A stretch of DNA of 64,000 nt, from assembly GCF_947488135.1 (NCBI RefSeq), contig NZ_CANKYW010000004.1:124001-188000 (forward strand). The letters run 5' to 3'. Origin of the DNA: an uncultured Marivita sp. (GTDB taxonomy: Bacteria; Pseudomonadota; Alphaproteobacteria; Rhodobacterales; Rhodobacteraceae). Position 1 is the first letter of the stretch. Every line of letters begins with the position of its first letter. The position numbers were made by a program, and so were the translations under genes. Below are positions 3,975 through 17,824 of the stretch, piece after piece. Below the pieces are notes generated by a model, which was given only the letters and a program-made list of their open reading frames with translations, made no database searches and was not told where the DNA came from.

Positions 3975-6900
3975 ATGAAAATCGAAAGAAAATTTACCAA
4001 ATCTGGGCAGGATGCATATGCGGGGATCGAGTTCGTCTCGACCACCTCTGAAATTCGGAACCCCGATGGGTCCGTTGTTTTCAAGCTGGACAATGTTGAG
4101 GTTCCGGCCAGCTGGAGCCAGGTCGCCAGCGACGTCATCGCACAAAAATATTTCCGCAAGGCTGGCGTTCCGACGGCGCTGAAGAAGATCAAGGAAAAGG
4201 ACGTGCCCAGCTTCCTGTGGCGCTCCGTTCCCGAAACCGAGGACACGCCGCGCACCGGTGAGGCGTCCTCGAAGCAGGTCTTCGACCGTCTTGCGGGTGC
4301 CTGGACCTATTGGGGCTGGAAGGGCGGCTACTTCACAACCGAAGAAGACGCGCAAGCCTATTTCGACGAAATGCGCTACATGCTGGCCACACAGAAGGCG
4401 GCGCCGAACAGCCCCCAGTGGTTCAACACCGGTCTGCACTGGGCCTATGGCATCGACGGGCCAAGCCAGGGTCACTTCTATGTGGACTACAAGACGGGTG
4501 AGCTGACCAAGTCGTCTTCGGCCTACGAGCACCCGCAGCCCCACGCGTGCTTCATCCAGTCCGTCGCTGATGATCTGGTCGGCGATGGTGGCATCATGGA
4601 TCTCTGGGTCCGCGAGGCGCGCCTGTTCAAGTATGGCTCCGGCACCGGCACGAACTTCAGCTCGCTCCGCGCGGCGAATGAGCCGCTGTCGGGTGGCGGC
4701 AAATCCTCGGGCCTTATGGGTTTCCTCAAGATCGGCGACCGGGCGGCGGGCGCGATTAAATCGGGCGGCACCACGCGCCGTGCGGCCAAGATGGTGATCT
4801 GCGATGCCGACCACCCGGATATCGAGGAATTCATCAACTGGAAGGTCAAGGAAGAGCAGAAGGTCGCCAGCATCGTCGCCGGATCGAAGATGCACGAGAA
4901 GATGCTGAACGCGATCTTCAAGGCGATCGGCACCTGGGACGGGGCGGTTGAAGACGCCTATGACCCCAAAAAGAACGACAGCCTGAAGGCGGCGATCCGC
5001 GCGGCCAAGGGTGTGATGATCCCCGAGACCTACATCAAGCGCGTGCTGGATTACGCGCGTCAGGGTTATAGCAGCATCGAATTCCCGACCTATGACACCG
5101 ACTGGGATAGCGAAGCCTACGCATCCGTGTCTGGCCAGAACTCGAACAACTCCATCCGCGTCACCAACGCGTTCCTTCAGGCGGTCAAGGACGATGCCGA
5201 TTGGGAATTGATCCGCCGCACCGATGGCAGCGTCGCCAAGACGATCAAGGCGCGCGACCTGTGGGAAGACGTGGGCCACGCGGCCTGGGCCTGTGCCGAT
5301 CCCGGCATCCAGTTCCACACCACCGTCAACGAATGGCACACCTGCCCGGCGGATGGCGAAATTCGCGGCTCGAACCCGTGTTCGGAATATATGTTCCTGG
5401 ACGACACGGCCTGTAACCTCGCATCGATGAACCTGCTGACCTTCCTCAAGGACGGCGAGTTCCAGTCCGAAGACTACATGCACGCAACACGGCTGTGGAC
5501 GCTGACGCTGGAAATCTCGGTGATGATGGCGCAGTTCCCGTCCAAGGAAATCGCGCAGCGGTCCTATGACTTCCGCACGCTGGGTCTGGGCTATGCCAAT
5601 ATCGGCGGGTTGCTGATGAACCTCGGCTACAGCTACGACAGCGACGAGGGCCGCGCGCTCTGCGGTGCGTTGACCGCGATCATGACGGGCGTGTCCTACG
5701 CCACCTCTGCCGAGATCGCCGGAGAATTGGGCCCGTTCCCGGGCTACAAGAAGAACGCCGACCATATGCTCCGCGTGATCCGCAACCACCGCAACGCCGC
5801 CTATGGCGCGACGGACGGGTACGAAGAGCTTTCGGTCAAGCCGGTGGCGCTCGACCATGCCAATTGCCCGGACAGCCGCCTGGTCGATCTGGCGATGGCA
5901 AGCTGGGACGAGGCGCTGCGCCTCGGTGAAAAGCACGGTTACCGCAACGCTCAGGCCACGGTGATCGCGCCCACCGGCACCATCGGTCTGGTCATGGATT
6001 GCGACACCACCGGGATCGAACCGGACTTCGCACTGGTGAAGTTCAAGAAGCTGGCCGGCGGCGGTTACTTCAAGATCATCAACCAGTCGGTGCCTGCGGC
6101 GCTCGAAAAGCTCGGCTACGGCAGCGCACAGATCGAAGAGATCGTGTCCTACGCGGTGGGCCACGGCACCATCGGCAACGCACCTTCGATCAACCACACG
6201 TCGCTGGCCGGTCACGGCTTTGGCCCGGCGCAGCTCGACAAGATCGAGGGCGCGCTGGCTTCGGCCTTCGACATCCGCTTCGTCTTCAACCAGTGGACGC
6301 TGGGCGAAGAGTTCTGCCGCGAAGTGCTTGGCATTCCGCAGGAAAAGCTGAACGATCCCACCTTCGACCTGCTGCGTCACCTGGGCTTCACCAAAGCCGA
6401 GATCGAAGCCGCAAACGATCATGTCTGCGGAACGATGACGCTGGAAGGCGCACCGCATCTGAAGGTCGAACACTACCCGGTCTTCGATTGCGCCAATCCC
6501 TGTGGCAAGAAGGGCAAGCGGTTCCTGTCGGTGCAGTCGCACATCACCATGATGGCAGCGGCACAGAGCTTCATCTCGGGGGCGATCTCCAAGACGATCA
6601 ACATGCCGAATGACGCGACCATCGAGGATTGCCAGAAGGCCTACGAGCTGAGCTGGTCGCTGGGCACCAAGGCCAACGCGCTCTACCGTGACGGCTCCAA
6701 ACTGTCGCAGCCACTCGCGGCAGCCCTTGTCGAAGACGACGAGGACGCGCAGGAGGTGCTGGAATCCGGCTCCATGACCGAAAAGGCGCAGGTGCTGGCC
6801 GAGAAGATCGTCGAAAAGGTGGTCATCAAGGAAATCCAGAAATCGCACCGCGAAAAGATGCCCGAGCGCCGCAAGGGCTATACCCAGAAAGCCATCGTCG

Positions 6901-7643
6901 GCGGGCACAAGGTGTACCTGCGCACTGGCGAATACGAAGACGGCTCTCTGGGCGAGATCTTCATCGACATGCACAAGGAAGGAGCGGGCTTCCGCGCCAT
7001 GATGAACAACTTTGCCATCGCGGTATCGGTTGGTCTTCAGTACGGCGTTCCGCTGGAAGAGTTCGTCGATGCCTTCACCTTCACCAAATTCGAACCGGCG
7101 GGCATGGTGCAGGGCAATGACAGCATCAAGAACGCGACCTCGATCCTCGACTACATCTTCCGCGAACTCGCTGTCAGCTATCTCGACCGCACCGATCTGG
7201 CCCATGTGAAGCCCGAAGGCGCCAGCTTCGACGATCTGGGCCGGGGCGAGGAAGAGGGCGTGTCGAACGTGCGCGAGCTTTCGGAAACCGCCGCGTCGCG
7301 GTCGCTCGAAGTGCTGAAGCAGATCAGCTCCACCGGCTACCTGCGCAAGCGTCTGCCACAAGAACTGATCGTGTTGCAGGGCGGACAGGCCGGGGCGGTC
7401 GCGTTCGGCGGCGGTGCCGATCCGGTGACTGCGCTCAACACGCTGGTGCCCGAAACCGGCGGGGTCGCGGTCGCGACGCAGACCACCAGCACCTCCTCGA
7501 CCACCGCCATGACGGCGGTGACGCGGGCCAAGATGCAGGGCTACGAAGGCGAGGCCTGCGGCGATTGCGGCAACTACACGCTGGTGCGCAACGGCACCTG
7601 CATGAAGTGCAACACCTGCGGTGGGACGTCTGGGTGTAGCTGA
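3975..7643 (+). CDS. nrdJ: adenosylcobalamin-dependent (class II) ribonucleotide reductase
   Basis: NrdJ makes deoxyribonucleotides with a radical generated from coenzyme B12, without needing oxygen. The 1222-aa length fits the large alphaproteobacterial type. Visible motifs: [10 protein letters not shown] (144-153); Cys192 in ACFIQSV; the radical-site motif N467-P-C469-S-E471; Cys480 in ACNLASMNL; and the phosphate-binding stretch APTGTIG. The C-terminal tail (1195-1222) has six cysteines in a zinc-ribbon arrangement and probably delivers reducing equivalents. The gene stands alone, followed by a strong terminator. The DnaA and NrdR sites upstream suggest control by replication and nucleotide state. 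The long antisense open frame across it is a shadow. Confidence 0.97.
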
Positions 7644-7837: not shown

Positions 7838-8296
7838 TCAGAACACTGTCGTGATCCCCAAAGCGTCCCGCAACCGGGTCCGGGCGCGGGCCAGCCGGGA
7901 CATGATCGTTCCCACGGGGACCTCCATTTCCTCCGCCAGTTCAGACGGGGTCACGCCCTCGTAGGCCACGCGCCGCAAGAGCGCCCGGTCGGATGTGGGC
8001 AGCGCCTCGAGCTTGCCCAGCACCTGGGAACAGAAGCAGGCCAGCGCCGCATCCTCGACCTGGGGTTCGAAGTCCTCCTCCATCGGGGTTTCTCGGGCCG
8101 CGAATTTGGCGCGGCTTGCGGCGGCGTGGCGCAGGGCCGTCATCATATAGGGAAGGGGCCGGGAAATCCTGGCCCCGATCGCTTCGCGTTCCAGCATGGC
8201 AAGGCACACCTCGTGGCAGAGGTCCTCGGCATCCTGGGGGCTGCGCGACAGGCGTCGGGCTCGGGCGCGCAGGCGGGGAAGATGATGTGTATCCAT
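7838..8296 (-). CDS. ECF-type RNA polymerase sigma factor
   Basis: A short sigma factor of about 152 aa. Region 2 is ARRLSRSPQDAEDLCHEVCL. Region 4 runs from LPTSDRALLRRVAYEG to TIMSRLARARTRL, a typical sigma-70 region 4 helix-turn-helix with the variant GTIMSRL in place of GTVKSRL. The frame is open to 8479, but ATG 8296 gives the usual ECF N-terminus; there is no convincing Shine-Dalgarno, so the start is moderate. No anti-sigma gene is adjacent. The divergent neighbour is a secreted EF-hand protein, a candidate target. Confidence 0.85.
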   Translation of the reverse strand: MDTHHLPRLRARARRLSRSPQDAEDLCHEVCLAMLEREAIGARISRPLPYMMTALRHAAASRAKFAARETPMEEDFEPQVEDAALACFCSQVLGKLEALPTSDRALLRRVAYEGVTPSELAEEMEVPVGTIMSRLARARTRLRDALGITTVF

Positions 8297-8521
8297 GCCC
8301 ACAGGTATGACAGCGGGAAAATCCCCGACCAGCCCGGGGGTTTCCGCCGATGGCGGAACGCGGCCCATTTTGCGCGGCGGATTGCGCAGCGACTGGGCCG
8401 TTTTGGGCAGGTCGGCGCCGCTGCGGCCACCCCCCGGGACGCCGGACAGGCTTTCCGCCTCATACCTCGTGAAGGCCACACGAAGTGGCGCTTCGCATAC
8501 AGGACTTAATGGGAGACCAAT

Positions 8522-8773
8522 ATGACACTCACTCTGACCCGACTGATCGCTGCCGGCCTCGTCACGCTGCCGATGGCCGCAATGGCCGCAGACTACATGG
8601 CTGCAGACGCCAATCAGGACGGCATGCTGTCACTCGAGGAGGTGCAAACCATCCTGCCCGAAGTGACGACCGACACGTTCATGGCGGTGGACACCGATGG
8701 GGACGGTCTTGTGAACGCGGACGAACTGGCCGTGGCGCAGACCGAAGGGTTGATGCCCGAAGCGGACAGCTAA
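8522..8773 (+). CDS. small exported EF-hand calcium-binding protein
   Basis: An 83-aa protein with a signal peptide (TLTLTRLIAAGLVTLPMAAMAA, cleavage near residue 23). The mature part is little more than two EF-hand loops: residues 29-40 (DANQDGMLSLEE) and 57-68 (DTDGDGLVNADE), both with Asp at position 1 and Glu at position 12, so both should bind Ca2+ in the periplasm. GGGAG precedes the ATG. It is divergent from the ECF sigma gene. A small hairpin with TTTT at about 8814-8832 may terminate it. Role unknown. Confidence 0.85.
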   Translation: MTLTLTRLIAAGLVTLPMAAMAADYMAADANQDGMLSLEEVQTILPEVTTDTFMAVDTDGDGLVNADELAVAQTEGLMPEADS

Positions 8774-8860: not shown

Positions 8861-11800
8861 TTACAGCTCGATCGTGATCTCGCCATCCGGCTCGGCCGCG
8901 CGCGATTGGCACAGGATGACCTGATCCACGCGTTGTGCTTTCGACAGAACGAAGTCACGGTGCTCCACAGCGCCGCCCAGGACACGCGCTTTGCAGACGC
9001 CACAAATCCCGTCCGCGCATTTCACATCCACCGACACGCCGTTTTCAGCCAGAACATCCGTCGCGCTTTTGTCCGGGGGCACGTGGAACGCGCGTCCGTC
9101 TTTCAGACGCAGCGTGAAGGCGTGGTTTTCGTAGTCTGGCAAGTCCGGGACGGCGAAATATTCGAGGTGCCGCGCCGGTTCGGGAAACCCTTTTCTTTCA
9201 GCGGCTTCCATGACGGAATTCATGTAAGCGACCGGCCCGCAGGTATAGATGTGTTGCCCGTCCGAATAGTCGGGCATGATCGCGTCGAGATCGGCGCGGG
9301 TGCCTTCATCGCTGATATGCACATGGACCTTGTCCGCCCACGGTGCGGCGGCCAGATCGTCCAGATACCCGGCCTCGGCACGGGTTTTCACCGAATAGTG
9401 CAGCGCAAAGGGGCGCCCCAGCGCGTGCAAGCGATGCGCCATCGCGATCATGGGCGTGACACCGATGCCGCCGCCCATGAGCCAGGTGAAGCGCGCGTCC
9501 TCGACCAGCGGGAAGTGGTTGATCGGTCGGGACACGAAGACACGCCGCCCTTCGGTGAAGATGCGGTGCAAGAGGGCTGATCCGCCGCGCCCGTGATCTT
9601 CGCGCAGCACGCCGATCTGGTAAACCGACCGATCCGCCGGGTCGCCCGACATCGAGTATTGCCTCAGGTATTCCGGTGCGACGACGAGATCGAGATGCGC
9701 GCCTGCGGTCCATGCGGGCAGGTCGGATCCATCGACGCTGCGAAACTCGTACTTGGTGACCGAGGGCGACATCTTTTCGACCTTGCTCACCATGACGGGG
9801 ACCACCGGGCTTTCGGTGGCGTCCTTGGGGCGGTGGAGGTGCGACGTGTCGCCCTTGGCCAGCCGCGCCTTGTGCTCCTCGGCGCTGACCATCGCGGCGT
9901 AGGCGGCGATCCCGGCTTCGCGGTCCATCGGGTCGGGGTATGGGTAAGGATGCGGAGCAAGAGGCGCGGGGTAGACGGCGAGCGTCTGATCCTCGTATTT
10001 CAGGTCGAGGTCCTTTTGCAGATCGCGCGCTTTCACCGGTTGGGTGGTGGGCGCATAGCTGCCGTTCTCCTGCAACTCCAGGTCCCACCACCATTTCTTG
10101 ACCGGGTTCAGGCCGCCGCGCCCTGCGGCATCATCCAGCTTGGCCAGAAGCGGCGCGGCTTGTGGTACGTTCATCGCAGCCCAGCGGAACGGCTTTTCGG
10201 CGAATAGCCCTTCGAGGTTCCACGGGCAGGTCTTCATGCAGCGCCCGCACATCGCGCCGCCCTCGGTCGTGATGCGGTAGGCGGCGCATTTCTGGCTGTC
10301 GGACTTCCAGATCTCGTAGCCGTTGAACATCCGCTTCGGCCCGGCGGTGATCGCGCCCGAGGGGCATTCGCGGGCGCATTTGTTGCAGCTTTCGCAGAAC
10401 CGTTGCAGGCCGAAGTCGATGGGTCTGTCATGTGCGAGTGGCATGTCGGTGGTGATGACGCCGGATTTCAGGCGAGGGCCGAGGAAGGGGTTGAGGATCA
10501 CCTCGCCGATGCGGCTCACTTCGCCGAGACCGCTCAGCAACAAGAGCGGAGGTTGCAGCACGTCGCCATCCATCACGCTGTGGGCCTTGGCCGAATAGCC
10601 GAGGTTGCGGATCTGGCGGGCCAGCACCCCGCCCAGCAGTGAGAACCGCAGATAGGCGCGCATGGATTGCGCCACGCTGATCCAGTCGTCGCCGGACGCG
10701 CCCTCCATCGTTTCGTAGCCCTGGTCGATGATGATGCTGATGGCCTGATCATGCGGCGGGTCGATCGGATCGCCGCGCGCATCGTGGCTGTACCAGACCC
10801 AATCGGGGCAACGGCTGATCCCCACGGCATCGCAGCCCAGCCAATAGGCCGTGGCCTTGATCGCGTCGGCGTTGTTCTGCAAATTTGCAGGACGTTGGCC
10901 GTTTTCGGGCGGTCCATCTTGCAATAACACAAAGGCCCCCAGCATCCGCCGCTGCGCCGAGGACGGTGCCGCCTTGCGCACATAGTAGCCGCCTTTGGCC
11001 TTGTCCTGAAGCTTTTTGCCCATGTCGCCGAACTGGGCGCGGGCGAACATATCGGTGCGCTTGGGCACGCGCGGCACGTTGGGTTCATCGATATAGGTGG
11101 TCGGGGTGTCGATGCGTTTGAGCGTTTCGAAGGGGTGCGGGCCATCGACATAGCGGCGGGTGTCGAACGGGTTGTCGTTGAGCCGCGACCGTGAGGACCT
11201 CGTGCCGAGGGTCCAAGACAGGCCTTTTGTCAGCGATTTAGGTTGATCCGGTGAGAGCGGCGCATCGTGGGCCAACTCCAGATCTGTGGTCACGACCGCG
11301 ACGCCGAAACGGTCGTGTAGCCACGGGTTCACCAATCGGTCGTCCGTTCCGTACGCCAGACCCGCCGCAACCGTACAGATGTTGAGGTCCACATCCGTGC
11401 TCGTGGCGCTGTGCGCCTTGGCGTTCCAGCCGAGCAGGCGGATGTAGTTGGCGATGACCACGGCGGTTTCGGTGGCGCGCAGGCAGGCACGGTGGTGCTG
11501 TGCGTCCGTGATCCAGTCGGTGCCAATCTCACCCGGGTTCGGGTCGCGCGGGATTTCGTAGAGGAACACAAGCGCCGTGTCATGCGACGCGATGGTAGTG
11601 CGCGGCGCCTCCATCGACTCCTTGAGGTCGGCCATGATGAGGTCGATCCCGGCGGCCAGCGTCTTGGTCTGGCGGATTCTCAGATCCTCCGCGAGGCGGG
11701 CGATATCGGGGTTCTGCCTCGGCTCGGACAAATGCGCTTCGGGCAAGAGCGGACCAATCCCCACCATCGTGGCGTCCGAAAAATATCCAAACGCTTTCAG

Positions 11801-12061
11801 ATGGTTGGCGCGCTCTGTTGCATCATTGGGGCAGGTGGAGCGGGCCTTGTTCACGAAGCCGTCGCGGATCGCGTCCATCATCGCCTGGTAATCCGCCATC
11901 GCGTTGACGATGGAGGCCGGATCGTCGGGGCGGCGAAAGCTCAGGCCGGGATGGCGGGGGATGCGTGCGGGATCCGGCATCGGGCCGCGCCGCGCCCGTT
12001 CAAGCGGGAACGGTCCCAGATGCACGGGCCGGTTTTTATCGGAAAAGAACCGCAGCCCCAT
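8861..12061 (-). CDS. self-sufficient reductive dehalogenase fused to flavin/2Fe-2S reductase
   Basis: A 1066-aa fusion resembling the catabolic NAD(P)H-dependent dehalogenases BhbA and NpRdhA. Residues about 1-650 form the cobalamin-type reductive dehalogenase. Two ferredoxin clusters are read as C556-x2-C559-x2-C562-x3-C566 and C592-x12-C605-x2-C608-x3-C612. Tyr424 and Lys492 are candidates for the catalytic Tyr/Lys pair of NpRdhA, by position only. Residues about 755-960 are a phthalate-dioxygenase-reductase-like module (flavin motif R800-QYS, nucleotide motif GGGIGVTP 863-870, YTCGP 939). Residues 985-1066 are a plant-type ferredoxin (C1015, C1020, C1023, C1051). There is no Tat signal, so it should act in the cytoplasm on a halogenated aromatic. 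It lies 44 bp after the regulator, probably in one operon. Confidence 0.9.
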   Translation of the reverse strand: MGLRFFSDKNRPVHLGPFPLERARRGPMPDPARIPRHPGLSFRRPDDPASIVNAMADYQAMMDAIRDGFVNKARSTCPNDATERANHLKAFGYFSDATMVGIGPLLPEAHLSEPRQNPDIARLAEDLRIRQTKTLAAGIDLIMADLKESMEAPRTTIASHDTALVFLYEIPRDPNPGEIGTDWITDAQHHRACLRATETAVVIANYIRLLGWNAKAHSATSTDVDLNICTVAAGLAYGTDDRLVNPWLHDRFGVAVVTTDLELAHDAPLSPDQPKSLTKGLSWTLGTRSSRSRLNDNPFDTRRYVDGPHPFETLKRIDTPTTYIDEPNVPRVPKRTDMFARAQFGDMGKKLQDKAKGGYYVRKAAPSSAQRRMLGAFVLLQDGPPENGQRPANLQNNADAIKATAYWLGCDAVGISRCPDWVWYSHDARGDPIDPPHDQAISIIIDQGYETMEGASGDDWISVAQSMRAYLRFSLLGGVLARQIRNLGYSAKAHSVMDGDVLQPPLLLLSGLGEVSRIGEVILNPFLGPRLKSGVITTDMPLAHDRPIDFGLQRFCESCNKCARECPSGAITAGPKRMFNGYEIWKSDSQKCAAYRITTEGGAMCGRCMKTCPWNLEGLFAEKPFRWAAMNVPQAAPLLAKLDDAAGRGGLNPVKKWWWDLELQENGSYAPTTQPVKARDLQKDLDLKYEDQTLAVYPAPLAPHPYPYPDPMDREAGIAAYAAMVSAEEHKARLAKGDTSHLHRPKDATESPVVPVMVSKVEKMSPSVTKYEFRSVDGSDLPAWTAGAHLDLVVAPEYLRQYSMSGDPADRSVYQIGVLREDHGRGGSALLHRIFTEGRRVFVSRPINHFPLVEDARFTWLMGGGIGVTPMIAMAHRLHALGRPFALHYSVKTRAEAGYLDDLAAAPWADKVHVHISDEGTRADLDAIMPDYSDGQHIYTCGPVAYMNSVMEAAERKGFPEPARHLEYFAVPDLPDYENHAFTLRLKDGRAFHVPPDKSATDVLAENGVSVDVKCADGICGVCKARVLGGAVEHRDFVLSKAQRVDQVILCQSRAAEPDGEITIEL

Positions 12062-12105
12062 GATGGCCTCCCTTTGGCGCTGGACCAGAGTGCAACATTC
12101 CCGGC

Positions 12106-12771
12106 TCAGGACTGCAAGGCATGAAAATCCTTCAGGGTTTTCCCTGCCTCGTCAACGAACAGACCGGGCAGGGGTGTGAGATCGGTCACGCGGTCCATGC
12201 GAAAGGTGGCAAAGCTGTCATCGGTTTCGTCCCATACAACGCAGGTCCAGATGCGCCCCCAGTAGTCCAGATGCAACGGGCGCACCGTGTGGGTCCGGTC
12301 CTCACCGTCGAGCCGCAGGCGCAGTTTCTGGCGCGCGCGGATGGCCTTGCGGAATGCGGGCATATGACGGAATCCCTGCGCGGCCTCGGCGAAGGGATAG
12401 GTGGCAAAGCCGAACCGCGCCTTTGGAGTGCCGACGTCTTCGGGCAAGACCGCGTCAATCTTGTCGGACAGGGCGCGGGCGGCGGCGGCGAGGTCTTCGG
12501 TATCCGCGACGCCCACGGCGGCGAGACCGATATGCAACGCTTCGAGTTCGGTCTGGGTCAGGTTCAACGGTGGCAGGGTGATCATCGCCTGCGCGGTATA
12601 GCCGGACCCGCGTGCGCCTTCGACCGGCACACCCGAGGCCGCAAGCGTGTCCATGTCGCGGTAGATGGTGCGCACCGACACGCCCAGATCCTGTGCCATG
12701 GCTTCGGCCGTGTGCAAATGACCATCCTTCAGACGCTGCATCAGAGCATAAAGTCGGTCGCTGCGTTTCAA
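12106..12771 (-). CDS. HTH/WYL-domain (YafY-type) transcriptional regulator
   Basis: A 221-aa regulator with an N-terminal DeoR-like winged helix (KRSDRLYALMQRLKDGHLHTAE, then DLGVSVRTIYRDMDTLAASGVPVEG) and a C-terminal WYL-type ligand domain (RPLHLDYWGRIWTCVVWDE). The start chosen is TTG at 12771 because GGAG stands six bases before it and the protein then begins exactly at the winged helix; the longer open frame upstream covers the promoter and tatA. It precedes the dehalogenase gene on the same strand by 44 bp and is the likely local regulator. A TGACA/TGTCA array sits 30 bp upstream. Confidence 0.88.
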   Translation of the reverse strand: MKRSDRLYALMQRLKDGHLHTAEAMAQDLGVSVRTIYRDMDTLAASGVPVEGARGSGYTAQAMITLPPLNLTQTELEALHIGLAAVGVADTEDLAAAARALSDKIDAVLPEDVGTPKARFGFATYPFAEAAQGFRHMPAFRKAIRARQKLRLRLDGEDRTHTVRPLHLDYWGRIWTCVVWDETDDSFATFRMDRVTDLTPLPGLFVDEAGKTLKDFHALQS

Positions 12772-12801
12772 ATGATTCTCCGGCGTTGGACGGGGCAATA
12801 C

Positions 12802-12835
12802 TGACAAAAACCTGTCAACTGACAAGCTCTTGACA
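12802..12835. promoter_or_regulatory. TGACA/TGTCA operator-like array
   Basis: TGACA occurs at 12802, 12820 and 12831, with TGTCA at 12813, giving the inverted repeat TGACA-N6-TGTCA and a second, overlapping TGTCA-N2-TGACA. The array lies between the divergent regulator and tatA genes, 30 bp from the regulator start. Its form suggests an operator for the WYL regulator controlling itself and the dehalogenase. The repeat is seen; the binding protein is inferred. Confidence 0.55.
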
Positions 12836-12957: not shown

Positions 12958-13188
12958 ATGCTCAACAATATCGGCCTTCCCGGCCTTCTGCTGATCGCCG
13001 TCGTGGTGCTGGTGCTGTTCGGCCGCGGCAAGATTTCTTCGCTGATGGGCGAAGTCGGCAAAGGCATCACCGCCTTCAAGAAAGGCGTGAAAGACGGCAC
13101 CGACGAGATCGAACAGGCCAATACCGGCGACGAGGCGAAAGACGTGACGCCCGAAACCGACAAGACGTCCAGCAAGGACAAGGTGTAA
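12958..13188 (+). CDS. tatA: twin-arginine translocase subunit TatA
   Basis: TatA oligomerises to form the pore that exports folded, twin-arginine-tagged proteins. The 76-aa protein has one N-terminal membrane helix ([20 protein letters not shown]), a hinge, the amphipathic helix [16 protein letters not shown], and a charged tail. The FGRGK junction is typical. AGGAGAG precedes the ATG. It is first gene of tatABC, with tatB six bases downstream. A Tat-tagged solute-binding protein is encoded in the same window at 60336. Confidence 0.96.
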
Positions 13189-13194
13189 GCCCAA

Positions 13195-13656
13195 ATGTTC
13201 GATCTTGGCTGGACCGAGCTTCTGGTGATCGGCATCGTCGCGCTGATCGTCGTGGGGCCCAAGGATTTGCCGGTGCTTTTTCGCAGCATCGGTCGGTTCA
13301 TGGGCAAGGCGCGCGGCATGGCGCGCGAGTTCAGCAAGGCGATGAACGACGCGGCGGATGAAGCCGGCGTGTCCGAAATGAGCAAGACGTTCAAATCGGC
13401 GACCAATCCGCTGTCCTCTGCGATGGATGGCGTGAAAGACGCGGCCAAGTCGATGACCGATCTCAACCCTGACAGCAACACGGGCAAACTGTCCGCAGAG
13501 CGTCAGGAAGCCAAGAAGAAGATCGAACTGTCCGCCGCGAAGGCGGCAGCGGAACGCAAGGCGCGCGAGGCGTCCGAAGCGGCGGCGAAGGTGGAAGCGA
13601 TGGAGGCCGAACAGAAGGCCGAAGCCGCGCCCTCCGACACGAAAGACTCCAAATGA
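13195..13656 (+). CDS. tatB: twin-arginine translocase subunit TatB
   Basis: TatB forms the signal-peptide receptor complex with TatC. The 153-aa protein begins [26 protein letters not shown], with the TatB-type Glu in the membrane helix and the Gly-Pro hinge. A long amphipathic helix follows, then a very Ala/Lys/Glu-rich tail likely to be helical. The last four bases overlap the tatC start, so translation is coupled. Confidence 0.95.
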
Positions 13657-14549
13657 ACACCAGCCCCGATGAGATCGAGGACAGCTCGGCCCCGTTGATC
13701 GAGCATCTGGCAGAGCTGCGCAACCGGCTGATCCATTCGGTCGTCGCGTTCCTGATCGGGATGATCATCTGTTTTACGGTGGCAACGCCGCTCTTTAACT
13801 TCCTGACCAATCCCCTGTGCGAGGTGCTGGCCGAGCGGGGGCAGGACTGCGACCTGATCTTCATCAGCCCGCAGGAAGGCTTTTTCGTCGCCATCAAGAT
13901 CTCGCTTCTCGGCGGGTTCATGTTGGCTTTTCCGTATATCGGCCTTCAAATGTGGCGCTTCGTGGCGCCGGGGCTTTACAAATCCGAGAAGGGCGCGTTC
14001 CTGCCGTTTCTCGTCGCGTCGCCCTTCATGTTCCTTCTGGGCGCGTCTTTTGCCTTCTACGTCGTCACGCCTCTGGCCTATGACTTCTTCCTTGGGTTCC
14101 AGCAATTCGGCGCCGAAGGCGAAGCGTTGGTGGACGAAGAGGTGGCACAAGGCTTGTCCGTGGTCTTCCAGGGCTCGGCGCAGGAATATCTCAACCTCAC
14201 CGTAAAATTCATCGTGGCCTTTGGGCTCTGTTTCCAGTTGCCGGTGTTGCTGACGCTGATGGGCAAGGCCGGTCTGGTCAGCTCGGAAGGTCTGGGCAAT
14301 GTGCGCAAATACGCGGTTGTCGCCATTCTGGTCCTTGCCGCGCTGGTGACGCCGCCGGATGTCATCACGCAGGTGATCCTCTTCGTCGTGGTCTACGGGC
14401 TTTACGAGGTGTCGATTTTCCTTGTCCGCCGGGTTGAGCGCAAGCGCGAGGCTGAGCTGCGGGCACAGGGCCTCTGGATGGAGGATGATGACCTCGAGGA
14501 CGATCCTCTGATGAAAGAATTTGACGAAGACGAGGGCGCGAAGAAGTGA
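13653..14549 (+). CDS. tatC: twin-arginine translocase subunit TatC
   Basis: TatC is the six-helix membrane receptor for twin-arginine signal peptides. The 298-aa protein has the N-terminal [15 protein letters not shown] motif and the family block around [24 protein letters not shown]. The periplasmic and later helices have normal spacing, and the C-terminal tail is charged ([22 protein letters not shown]). ATGA-type overlaps with tatB upstream and the ATPase gene downstream place all four genes in one transcription unit. Confidence 0.96.
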
Positions 14550-16085: not shown

Positions 16086-17168
16086 TCACGCGCGGCGGCG
16101 GCGGCCTCCGACGCGGCCCGCACGACCCCGGCCTTCGTGGCCTGCTTTCGGCGGCTGCTTGTTGAACTCGATCCAGGCACCGCCGCCTTCGTCGTTGTTG
16201 GTCAGGAAGTTGGCCGCGCGGATCGCTTCCATTTCCTTGCCGGGGCGCGGCTTGGTCGACCCCAGGCCGAAGAGGACGCAGAAGGTTTCGTCGTCCATAT
16301 CTTCGGGCAGGACGATGCCAGCGGCCTCGACCTCGGCACGCTTTTCCGCAATCTTGGTCGGTCCGACGGGCAGGGCGACGGGGTTCATGATGGCCGAGGT
16401 CATGCCTGCGCCCATCGCCATCGGCAGGAAGGCGTTGTTGATGCCGTGGCGGTTGGGCAGGCCGAAGCTGATGTTGGACGCGCCGCAAGTGGTGTTCACA
16501 CCCAGTTCTTCGCGCAAGCGACGGACAAGTGTGAAGACCTGAAGGCCAGCGGTGCCCATCGCGCCAATCGGCATGACCAGCGGGTCCACCACAATGTCAT
16601 GCGCCGGGATGCCGAAATCGGCGGCGCGTTCGACGATCTTTTTCGCGACAGCAAAGCGCACATCCGGGTCTTCGGAGATCCCGGTGTCGTCGTTCGAGAT
16701 CGCCACCACCGGCACGTTGTATTTCTTGACCAGTGGCAGGACGAGTTCGAGACGCTCTTCCTCGCCCGTGACCGAGTTCAGCAGCGGGCGGCCTTCGGCG
16801 GCGGCGAGGCCGTTTTCCAGAGCACCGGGCACCGAGCTGTCGATGCAGAGCGGGCAATCGGTGACGGCCTGCACGCGTTCGACCAGTTCGCGCATCAGCG
16901 TCGGTTCGACGAAGTTGTTGTCGGCATAGCGCGAGTCTTCGGCCATCTTGTTCGAGAAGACGGCACCCGAGTTGATGTCGAGAATGTTGGCCCCGGCGGC
17001 GACCTGCGCCAGCGCGTCGGCTTCGACCCGGCTGAAATCTCCGCGTTCGAGTTCCTCGTTCAGTACCTTGCGGCCGGTCGGGTTGATCCGTTCACCGATC
17101 ACGCAGAACGGCTGGTCGAATCCGATGATGGCGGTTTTGGTCTTGGACTCGACAATCGTGCGGGTCAT
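16086..17168 (-). CDS. methyltetrahydrofolate:corrinoid methyltransferase (pterin-binding)
   Basis: A 360-aa pterin-binding TIM-barrel protein related to the folate domain of MetH. It has the entry signature VIGERINPTGRK, then GANILDINSGA, CPLCIDSSVPGALE, LLNSVTGEEE and GASNISFGLPNR. This pattern fits methyl-THF:corrinoid methyltransferases rather than dihydropteroate synthase. In several roseobacters methionine synthase is split into separate homocysteine, B12 and folate-binding proteins, and this gene looks like the folate part. The C-terminal 20 residues are Arg/Gly-rich. ATG 17168 overlaps the HAD gene stop; the open frame further upstream lies in the HAD gene. Confidence 0.85.
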   Translation of the reverse strand: MTRTIVESKTKTAIIGFDQPFCVIGERINPTGRKVLNEELERGDFSRVEADALAQVAAGANILDINSGAVFSNKMAEDSRYADNNFVEPTLMRELVERVQAVTDCPLCIDSSVPGALENGLAAAEGRPLLNSVTGEEERLELVLPLVKKYNVPVVAISNDDTGISEDPDVRFAVAKKIVERAADFGIPAHDIVVDPLVMPIGAMGTAGLQVFTLVRRLREELGVNTTCGASNISFGLPNRHGINNAFLPMAMGAGMTSAIMNPVALPVGPTKIAEKRAEVEAAGIVLPEDMDDETFCVLFGLGSTKPRPGKEMEAIRAANFLTNNDEGGGAWIEFNKQPPKAGHEGRGRAGRVGGRRRRA

Positions 17169-17824
17169 GCGGCTACTCCTTGAATGCGGGCCAGGATGTC
17201 CGGCAGCGCGGGGTCTGTGAAATCTTGGATGCTTGTATCCGCTCCGACCGCGCACAGCTTCGCGTCGGTCAGGGCAGAGCGGACACCGATGCAATAGGCG
17301 CCCGAGGCGGCGGCGGCGCGCATGCCCGAGGGGCTGTCCTCAAAGGCGACGCAGGCGCTCGCGGGCTCTCCGAGCAACTCCATCGCGGTCAGATAGGGCA
17401 GCGGATGCGGTTTGCCGTGATCGCATTCCTCGCCGATCACGATCACGTCGAACCGGTCGCGCAGGCCGATGGCGCGCAGCATCGCTTCGGCGTTGAGGCG
17501 CATCGCGTTGGTGACGACGGCCATCTTCCAGCCCAGCGATTGCGCGTGATCGAGGAAAGTCTCGAGCCCGGGCGTCGCTGGGTAGGGTGACGGCAGGCGG
17601 TCGCGGAACTGCGCCTCTTTCCATTCGCTGAGCGCTTGCGGATCCGGTTCGTCGGGCAGGTACTCCGCGAAGACATCGACGTTCAGACGTCCATGCACCT
17701 GCTCGATATAGAAGCCGTCCGGCATCGGCAGGCCACGGTCGGTCCACAATTCTGTAAAGACGGCCTCGTGGATCGGGTCCGAATTCAGCATGGTACCGTC
17801 GAGATCGAAGAGCAGAGCTGGCAT
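17165..17824 (-). CDS. HAD-superfamily hydrolase (beta-phosphoglucomutase/phosphatase-like)
   Basis: A 219-aa class I HAD enzyme with a helical cap. Motif I is LLFDLDGTMLNSDP, motif II lies in MAVVTNA, and motif III/IV in GKPHPLPYLTAMELL followed by CVAFEDSPSGMRAAAASG. The last pattern is typical of the phosphoglycolate/beta-phosphoglucomutase group. Substrate unknown. It starts six bases after the MetF-like stop and its stop overlaps the methyltransferase ATG, so it belongs to the one-carbon operon; it may remove a damaged or side metabolite of that pathway. Confidence 0.87.
   Translation of the reverse strand: MPALLFDLDGTMLNSDPIHEAVFTELWTDRGLPMPDGFYIEQVHGRLNVDVFAEYLPDEPDPQALSEWKEAQFRDRLPSPYPATPGLETFLDHAQSLGWKMAVVTNAMRLNAEAMLRAIGLRDRFDVIVIGEECDHGKPHPLPYLTAMELLGEPASACVAFEDSPSGMRAAAASGAYCIGVRSALTDAKLCAVGADTSIQDFTDPALPDILARIQGVAA

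Follow-up and report, generated by a model that had tools for sequence, protein, structure and literature searches.

The closest described relatives of the enzyme considered here are three catabolic reductive dehalogenases (RdhA), JtRdhA, BhbA and NpRdhA. JtRdhA from Jhaorihella thermophila (WP_104007082) has been purified, and catalyzes NADPH-coupled debromination and deiodination of ortho-halophenols; its activity is unimpaired by air, and chlorinated analogues act as inhibitors (PMC10463259). BhbA from Comamonas sp. 7D-2 (WP_015585978) is encoded on a plasmid, where its gene is next to genes for protocatechuate 4,5-dioxygenase and for a component of a transporter. NpRdhA from Nitratireductor pacificus (structures 4RAS, 6ZXU and 6ZY1) lacks a fused reductase (our alignment; PMC10463259). 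A term search of PMC10463259 found nothing on the regulation of JtRdhA, and the incomplete annotation of the bhbA neighbourhood contains no WYL gene. Here we compare with these systems an rdhA gene, and the gene for a WYL-type regulator directly upstream of it, in a stretch of 64,000 nucleotides from an uncultured Marivita sp. of the family Rhodobacteraceae (contig NZ_CANKYW010000004.1; this whole stretch is referred to as the window). We are confident that rdhA encodes a self-sufficient dehalogenase of the BhbA/JtRdhA type, and that the WYL gene is a tatABC-linked neighbour that is not dedicated to it.

The rdhA gene is a single intact open reading frame (ORF). An earlier note on this DNA had proposed that one protein holds a cobalamin-type dehalogenase with two 4Fe-4S motifs, a flavin reductase and a ferredoxin, and the ORF, the profiles and the motifs all agree with that layout (Table 1). 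The whole protein scores 197 bits against the reductive dehalogenase profile TIGR02486 (cut-off 160.35). NpRdhA (4RAS) matches with an E-value of 2.9e-158, mainly over residues 158-743 and nowhere beyond residue 743. The C-terminus matches phthalate dioxygenase reductase (PDOR; 2PIA), and carries the flavin motif RQYS at residue 800, GGGIGVTP at 863 and CGP at 941, with the ferredoxin cysteines C1015, C1020 and C1023 (CX4CX2C, residues 1015-1023) and C1051. The N-terminal and C-terminal halves of RdhA are 38% identical (BLASTP, E 3e-16), corresponding to a duplicated core, and a vestigial duplicated cobalamin domain is a described trait of catabolic RdhAs (PMC10463259). An insert of about 49 residues is also present in BhbA (locus L201) and in L204 and L202, is absent from NpRdhA, and is mostly absent from L021 and L220. 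RdhA-PDOR fusions are described as having a specific insert (PMC10463259), to which the insert seen here may correspond.

The architecture had been likened to both BhbA and NpRdhA, and only the first half of that comparison stands. BhbA, with 50% identity over 1062 positions, has the same full-length architecture and the same fusion-type insert. NpRdhA, with 44% identity over 574 aligned positions, shares the catabolic core, the duplicated domain and the catalytic residues, but 4RAS aligns only as far as residue 743, and the full layout is that of BhbA and JtRdhA. Compared by description, JtRdhA has in common with the window's RdhA the self-sufficient fusion, the duplicated cobalamin domain, the conserved Tyr, Lys and Arg residues and a marine host.

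Residues S422, Y426, K488 and R552 of NpRdhA correspond to S466, Y470, K532 and R596 in the window's RdhA. An alignment of 181 rows, some of them duplicate entries of one gene and some incomplete or unrelated, shows Tyr at position 470 in 178 rows; at position 532, 155 rows have Lys, 9 have Arg and 17 have a gap, and at position 596, 155 rows have Arg and 16 have a gap. A tree of the core (43 rows) places RdhA with BhbA, within a clade of 29 reductase-fused rows (support 94/100) that includes BhbA and a protein from Nitratireductor OM-1. NpRdhA and the other unfused RdhAs fall outside this clade, and the long-branch rows L205, L216 and L227 are unsurely placed. The self-sufficient catabolic dehalogenase that had been predicted is supported by the profile scores, the tree, the catalytic residues and the fold match described below.

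Respiratory dehalogenases and the epoxyqueuosine reductase QueG have the same cobalamin/4Fe-4S fold, and RdhA gives a weak match to the QueG profile TIGR00276. That match, however, reaches 23.9 bits where the cut-off is 200, and the genome encodes a separate QueG (C2:562176-563171). QueG itself does not match the core, which leaves it out of the 43-row tree. A motif check for RRx[FL], as in a twin-arginine signal, found none in residues 1-50 of RdhA, and the sole visible twin-arginine row among 13 N-termini inspected (L205) lies on a long separate branch. The fused reductase and the duplicated core are both in keeping with a catabolic RdhA. We consider either identity, respiratory dehalogenase or epoxyqueuosine reductase, extremely unlikely for this protein, and placement among the QueG proteins, which had been named as an outcome that would refute the dehalogenase reading, is not what we observe.

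An AlphaFold model of RdhA, based on 39 related sequences, has a mean predicted local distance difference test score (pLDDT) of 71. Its top Foldseek matches are the NpRdhA structures 6zxx and 4ras (E 6.8e-51, TM-score by target 0.80). Two properties of the model weigh against the assignment: the catalytic core is poorly modelled, with block means of 28-47 for residues 561-620 and 36-52 for residues 501-530, and the fit to NpRdhA has a root-mean-square deviation (rmsd) of about 7. Because of the low pLDDT in the core and the high rmsd, the model does not confirm the cobalamin pocket, which rests on sequence homology.

The window's RdhA is a BhbA/JtRdhA-type enzyme, a type that is already known and that has been purified and assayed in a relative. 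It probably debrominates and deiodinates phenols, as judged from the parts it has in common with the relatives for which this activity was demonstrated. By analogy with these, NADPH would reduce the C-terminal flavin domain of the cytosolic enzyme, electrons would then travel through the [2Fe-2S] cluster and both [4Fe-4S] clusters as far as cobalamin, whose cobalt, acting with the Tyr-Lys/Arg set, would strip an ortho bromine or iodine from the phenol. The dehalogenated product, for example 4-hydroxybenzoate, could enter pathways whose genes lie at other loci. A pobA gene is present elsewhere in the genome (624 bits, cut-off 538.7) and could carry 4-hydroxybenzoate onward. The absence of catabolic neighbours, also remarked on in the earlier note, holds for the genes near rdhA but not for the genome as a whole.

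RdhAs of this type are common in the family: at an E-value of 1e-100 or better, RdhA has a match in 152 of 394 genomes, and rdhA is present in 15 of 17 genomes of the genus. A named collection of relatives (the best 80 of 486) contains eight loci at 82-88% identity, six of which are titled Marivita and two of which are metagenome-assembled genomes; we refer to all eight as Marivita loci, and to the remaining 72 as non-Marivita. Eight plasmid records contain a copy that spans 80% or more of the protein; they come from Ruegeria TM1040, Tritonibacter (2), Jannaschia, Yoonia, Aminobacter, Comamonas and Nitratireductor. On the plasmid of Jannaschia sp. M317 (L203), rdhA is flanked instead by a divergent MarR-type regulator and a LysR-type regulator. 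Roseobacter MED193, from which a short debrominase without a twin-arginine translocation (TAT) signal has been characterised (PMC13101508), additionally has a fused-type RdhA (L077). Short unfused RdhA-like ORFs of 337-449 residues were seen in seven genomes of the family (L219, L222, L223, L224, L225, L226 and L227); in the tree they group separately from the fused RdhAs, and the catalytic Lys is replaced by Arg in the four rows inspected. Judged by description, they are possibly of the same kind as the MED193 debrominase, Ros_A3X954.

The enzyme may serve to detoxify brominated or iodinated natural phenols, or to scavenge them as signals, instead of acquiring carbon. The solitary position of rdhA in most genera examined is compatible with such a role. 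No conserved neighbour of rdhA emerged outside Marivita: ORF clusters span at most 11 of the 72 loci (ORFs overlapping rdhA excluded), and no Pfam family is common to more than 5 of 54 upstream or more than 4 of 53 downstream nearest ORFs; these were scanned out of 70 upstream and 66 downstream ORFs, mostly near-duplicates being dropped, and the call of the nearest ORF was crude and likely picked some antisense ORFs. However, ring-cleavage genes are found close to bhbA and to the gene for the homologue from Nitratireductor OM-1, the window's genome has pobA, and JtRdhA allowed Escherichia coli strain W to grow on 3-bromo-4-hydroxyphenylacetic acid (PMC10463259). Detoxification or signal scavenging is possible, in our view, but less probable than a role in carbon acquisition.

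A WYL-type regulator gene had been noted 44 bp upstream of rdhA, and its product indeed matches HTH_11 (E 8e-14) and WYL (E 9e-10), with the gap between the genes at 12062-12105. Regulators with the Pfam domains HTH_11 and WYL presumably correspond to what is called the YafY type; the protein resembles these in its domains, and its orthologue group differs in being linked to tatABC. In the window, tatABC is divergent from the WYL gene. Orthologues of the WYL gene in other genera have tatA, tatB and tatC as neighbours at 27 of 27 loci retrieved (L169-L195, which score best among the 161 family genomes with a WYL match). The three tat genes also adjoin it in G018, G019 and G021. No paper joining WYL and tatABC was found in the literature searched, and none joining a reductive dehalogenase and WYL among the literature matches listed.

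Among the loci examined, adjacency of the WYL gene and a fused rdhA is confined to the genus. The WYL gene lies directly upstream of rdhA, on the same strand and with gaps of 44-59 bp, in all 15 rdhA-bearing genomes of the genus. Outside the genus, the WYL protein was found beside fused rdhA in none of 102 loci, comprising 30 from genome searches (flanks of about 1.5 kb) and the 72 named loci (flanks of up to 6 kb); some genomes may recur in both sets, and a few loci (e.g. L098 and L106) are almost devoid of upstream sequence. Both genes could be placed in 88 genomes of the family; they lie on the same contig in 22 of these and within 20 kb of each other in two, both from this genus. One member of the genus without rdhA, G011, has the arrangement nrdJ-WYL-tatABC. 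Loss of rdhA in G011 is likelier than late gain, because in the WYL tree G011 nests inside the genus, after rdhA-bearing branches (support 98/87 and 97/83).

The WYL gene is preceded by a conserved element of 35 bases with TGTCA repeats (consensus TGTCAnGAGnTTGTCAGTTGnCAGGTTTTTGTCAG), which is found at 16 of 16 WYL loci of the genus, at one of three close outgroups and at 22 of 27 WYL loci of the family. Since the pattern was derived from the same WYL loci, the last count is descriptive, and it is the absences from rdhA loci and shuffles that are informative. The element is absent from 11 distant WYL genes and from 860 mononucleotide shuffles, and from all 72 non-Marivita rdhA loci, so that among the 80 named loci only the eight from Marivita have it. 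No score above 3.0 is reached in 71 non-Marivita rdhA upstream regions, whereas each of the 27 distinct training sites scores 40.9 or higher.

The WYL gene looks like a tatABC-linked regulator gene and not like a dedicated partner of rdhA, and its adjacency to the enzyme gene looks like a feature of one genus. The claim that it encodes rdhA's own regulator does not hold up, because the orthologue is linked to tatABC elsewhere, persists without rdhA and, beyond the genus, adjoined none of the fused rdhA genes examined. Several observations pull in the other direction. Across the 394 family genomes, 94 have both rdhA and the WYL orthologue, 58 have rdhA only, 67 have WYL only and 175 have neither, a co-occurrence with an odds ratio of 4.2 (p 2e-11, uncorrected for phylogeny) that we read as shared ancestry; the WYL protein may nevertheless control rdhA in trans. 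In G031, from another family (L022 / L155), a distant WYL homologue (35-36% identity) is encoded downstream of an unfused rdhA of the NpRdhA type. Three of the 71 non-Marivita rdhA upstream regions beat the best of 71 shuffles for the element, albeit weakly (scores of at most 3.0). A dedicated halophenol sensor controlling rdhA would fit this co-occurrence, and equally the invariant position of the WYL gene within the genus. With tat genes as the constant neighbour in other genera, with the 67 family genomes and G011 in which WYL stands without rdhA, and with neither WYL nor its upstream element at the non-genus rdhA loci examined for each, we regard a dedicated sensor as improbable.

For the tatABC-linked regulator, the conserved upstream element suggests that the WYL gene is probably autoregulated. 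In the Marivita lineage, rdhA would have come to lie beside this gene, and would be transcribed as the second gene after it. Read-through from the WYL promoter is probable as a local arrangement in Marivita, because the gap is short (44-59 bp), the ribosome-binding site is good, and a simple scan of 12062-12105 revealed no promoter- or terminator-like site. The hexamer TGCACT is retained in the gap of eight of ten genus sequences inspected, and the rest of the gap is variable.

Table 1. Coordinates of the features of the rdhA locus, numbered along the window.
Feature	Position	Strand	Basis
rdhA, self-sufficient catabolic reductive dehalogenase, 1066 residues	8861..12061	-	ORF, profile, structure-database matches, tree
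Plant-type [2Fe-2S] ferredoxin domain, borders approximate	8864..9127	-	PF00111, E 6e-9
Phthalate dioxygenase reductase-like flavin and NAD(P)H domain, borders approximate	9134..9805	-	2PIA, E 3.2e-51; motifs
Catalytic reductive dehalogenase core	10121..10750	-	TIGR02486, 164 bits
Second 4Fe-4S motif, C592-C612 (CX12CX2CX3C)	10226..10288	-	motif
First 4Fe-4S motif, C556-C566 (CX2CX2CX3C)	10364..10396	-	motif
Vestigial, diverged N-terminal copy of the cobalamin-binding fold	11240..11821	-	TIGR02486 partial match, E 1.7e-8
Insert common to reductase-fused RdhAs, about residues 109-157	11591..11737	-	alignment
Ribosome-binding site of rdhA, GGGAGG	12067..12072	-	sequence
WYL-type regulator gene (HTH_11 and WYL), probable TTG start	12106..12771	-	profiles, tatABC-linked orthologues
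Conserved TGTCA-repeat element upstream of the WYL gene, putative operator	12801..12835	-	conservation
tatABC, divergent from the WYL gene	12958..14549	+	neighbour in other genera too

The cofactor is probably imported, as suggested by missing synthesis markers: two were looked for in the window's genome, and one of them in the other members of the genus as well. No cobI/cbiL scores over the cut-off in the window's genome, and the protein there that resembles CobN is instead the magnesium chelatase BchH (G000:C2:281064-284060, L238). Among 16 genomes of the genus (G000-G015), cobI is over the cut-off only in G011, which lacks rdhA, and in none of the 14 rdhA-bearing genomes tested; G008 lacks both genes. 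Two of the 14, G001 and G013, are only 87% complete, and several have weak matches below the cut-off (up to 46 bits). The presence of BchH points to bacteriochlorophyll synthesis.

Near rdhA lie two more genes with a link to corrinoids, nrdJ, for the B12-dependent ribonucleotide reductase NrdJ (3975-7643), and a methyltetrahydrofolate:corrinoid methyltransferase-like gene (16086-17294). Between nrdJ and rdhA, an extracytoplasmic function (ECF) sigma factor (7838-8479) and a small EF-hand-like protein (8522-8773) are divergently encoded; this pair occurs in some Marivita genomes, and not in L052, L053, L108 or L168. An Rfam search of the window for a cobalamin riboswitch gave no match beyond two tRNAs.

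We speculate that the Marivita rdhA has come under the control of a promoter at which a tat-linked WYL protein regulates its own gene, so that dehalogenation in the cytosol answers the signal of the WYL protein, and that this step depends on B12 from neighbouring organisms, because the rdhA-bearing genomes of the genus that were tested lack cobI. This proposal is tentative, and as a whole we think it somewhat more likely to be wrong than right. If true, degradation of halophenols would hinge on a regulator and a cofactor that are both borrowed. With this enzyme, one more marine genus joins the bacteria that are likely to debrominate and deiodinate aerobically. Because rdhA carriers lack a marker of B12 synthesis, the B12 dependence of marine halophenol turnover can be tested directly. 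The locus also illustrates that a regulator adjoining an enzyme gene need not control that gene, and that comparison across genomes can separate the two.

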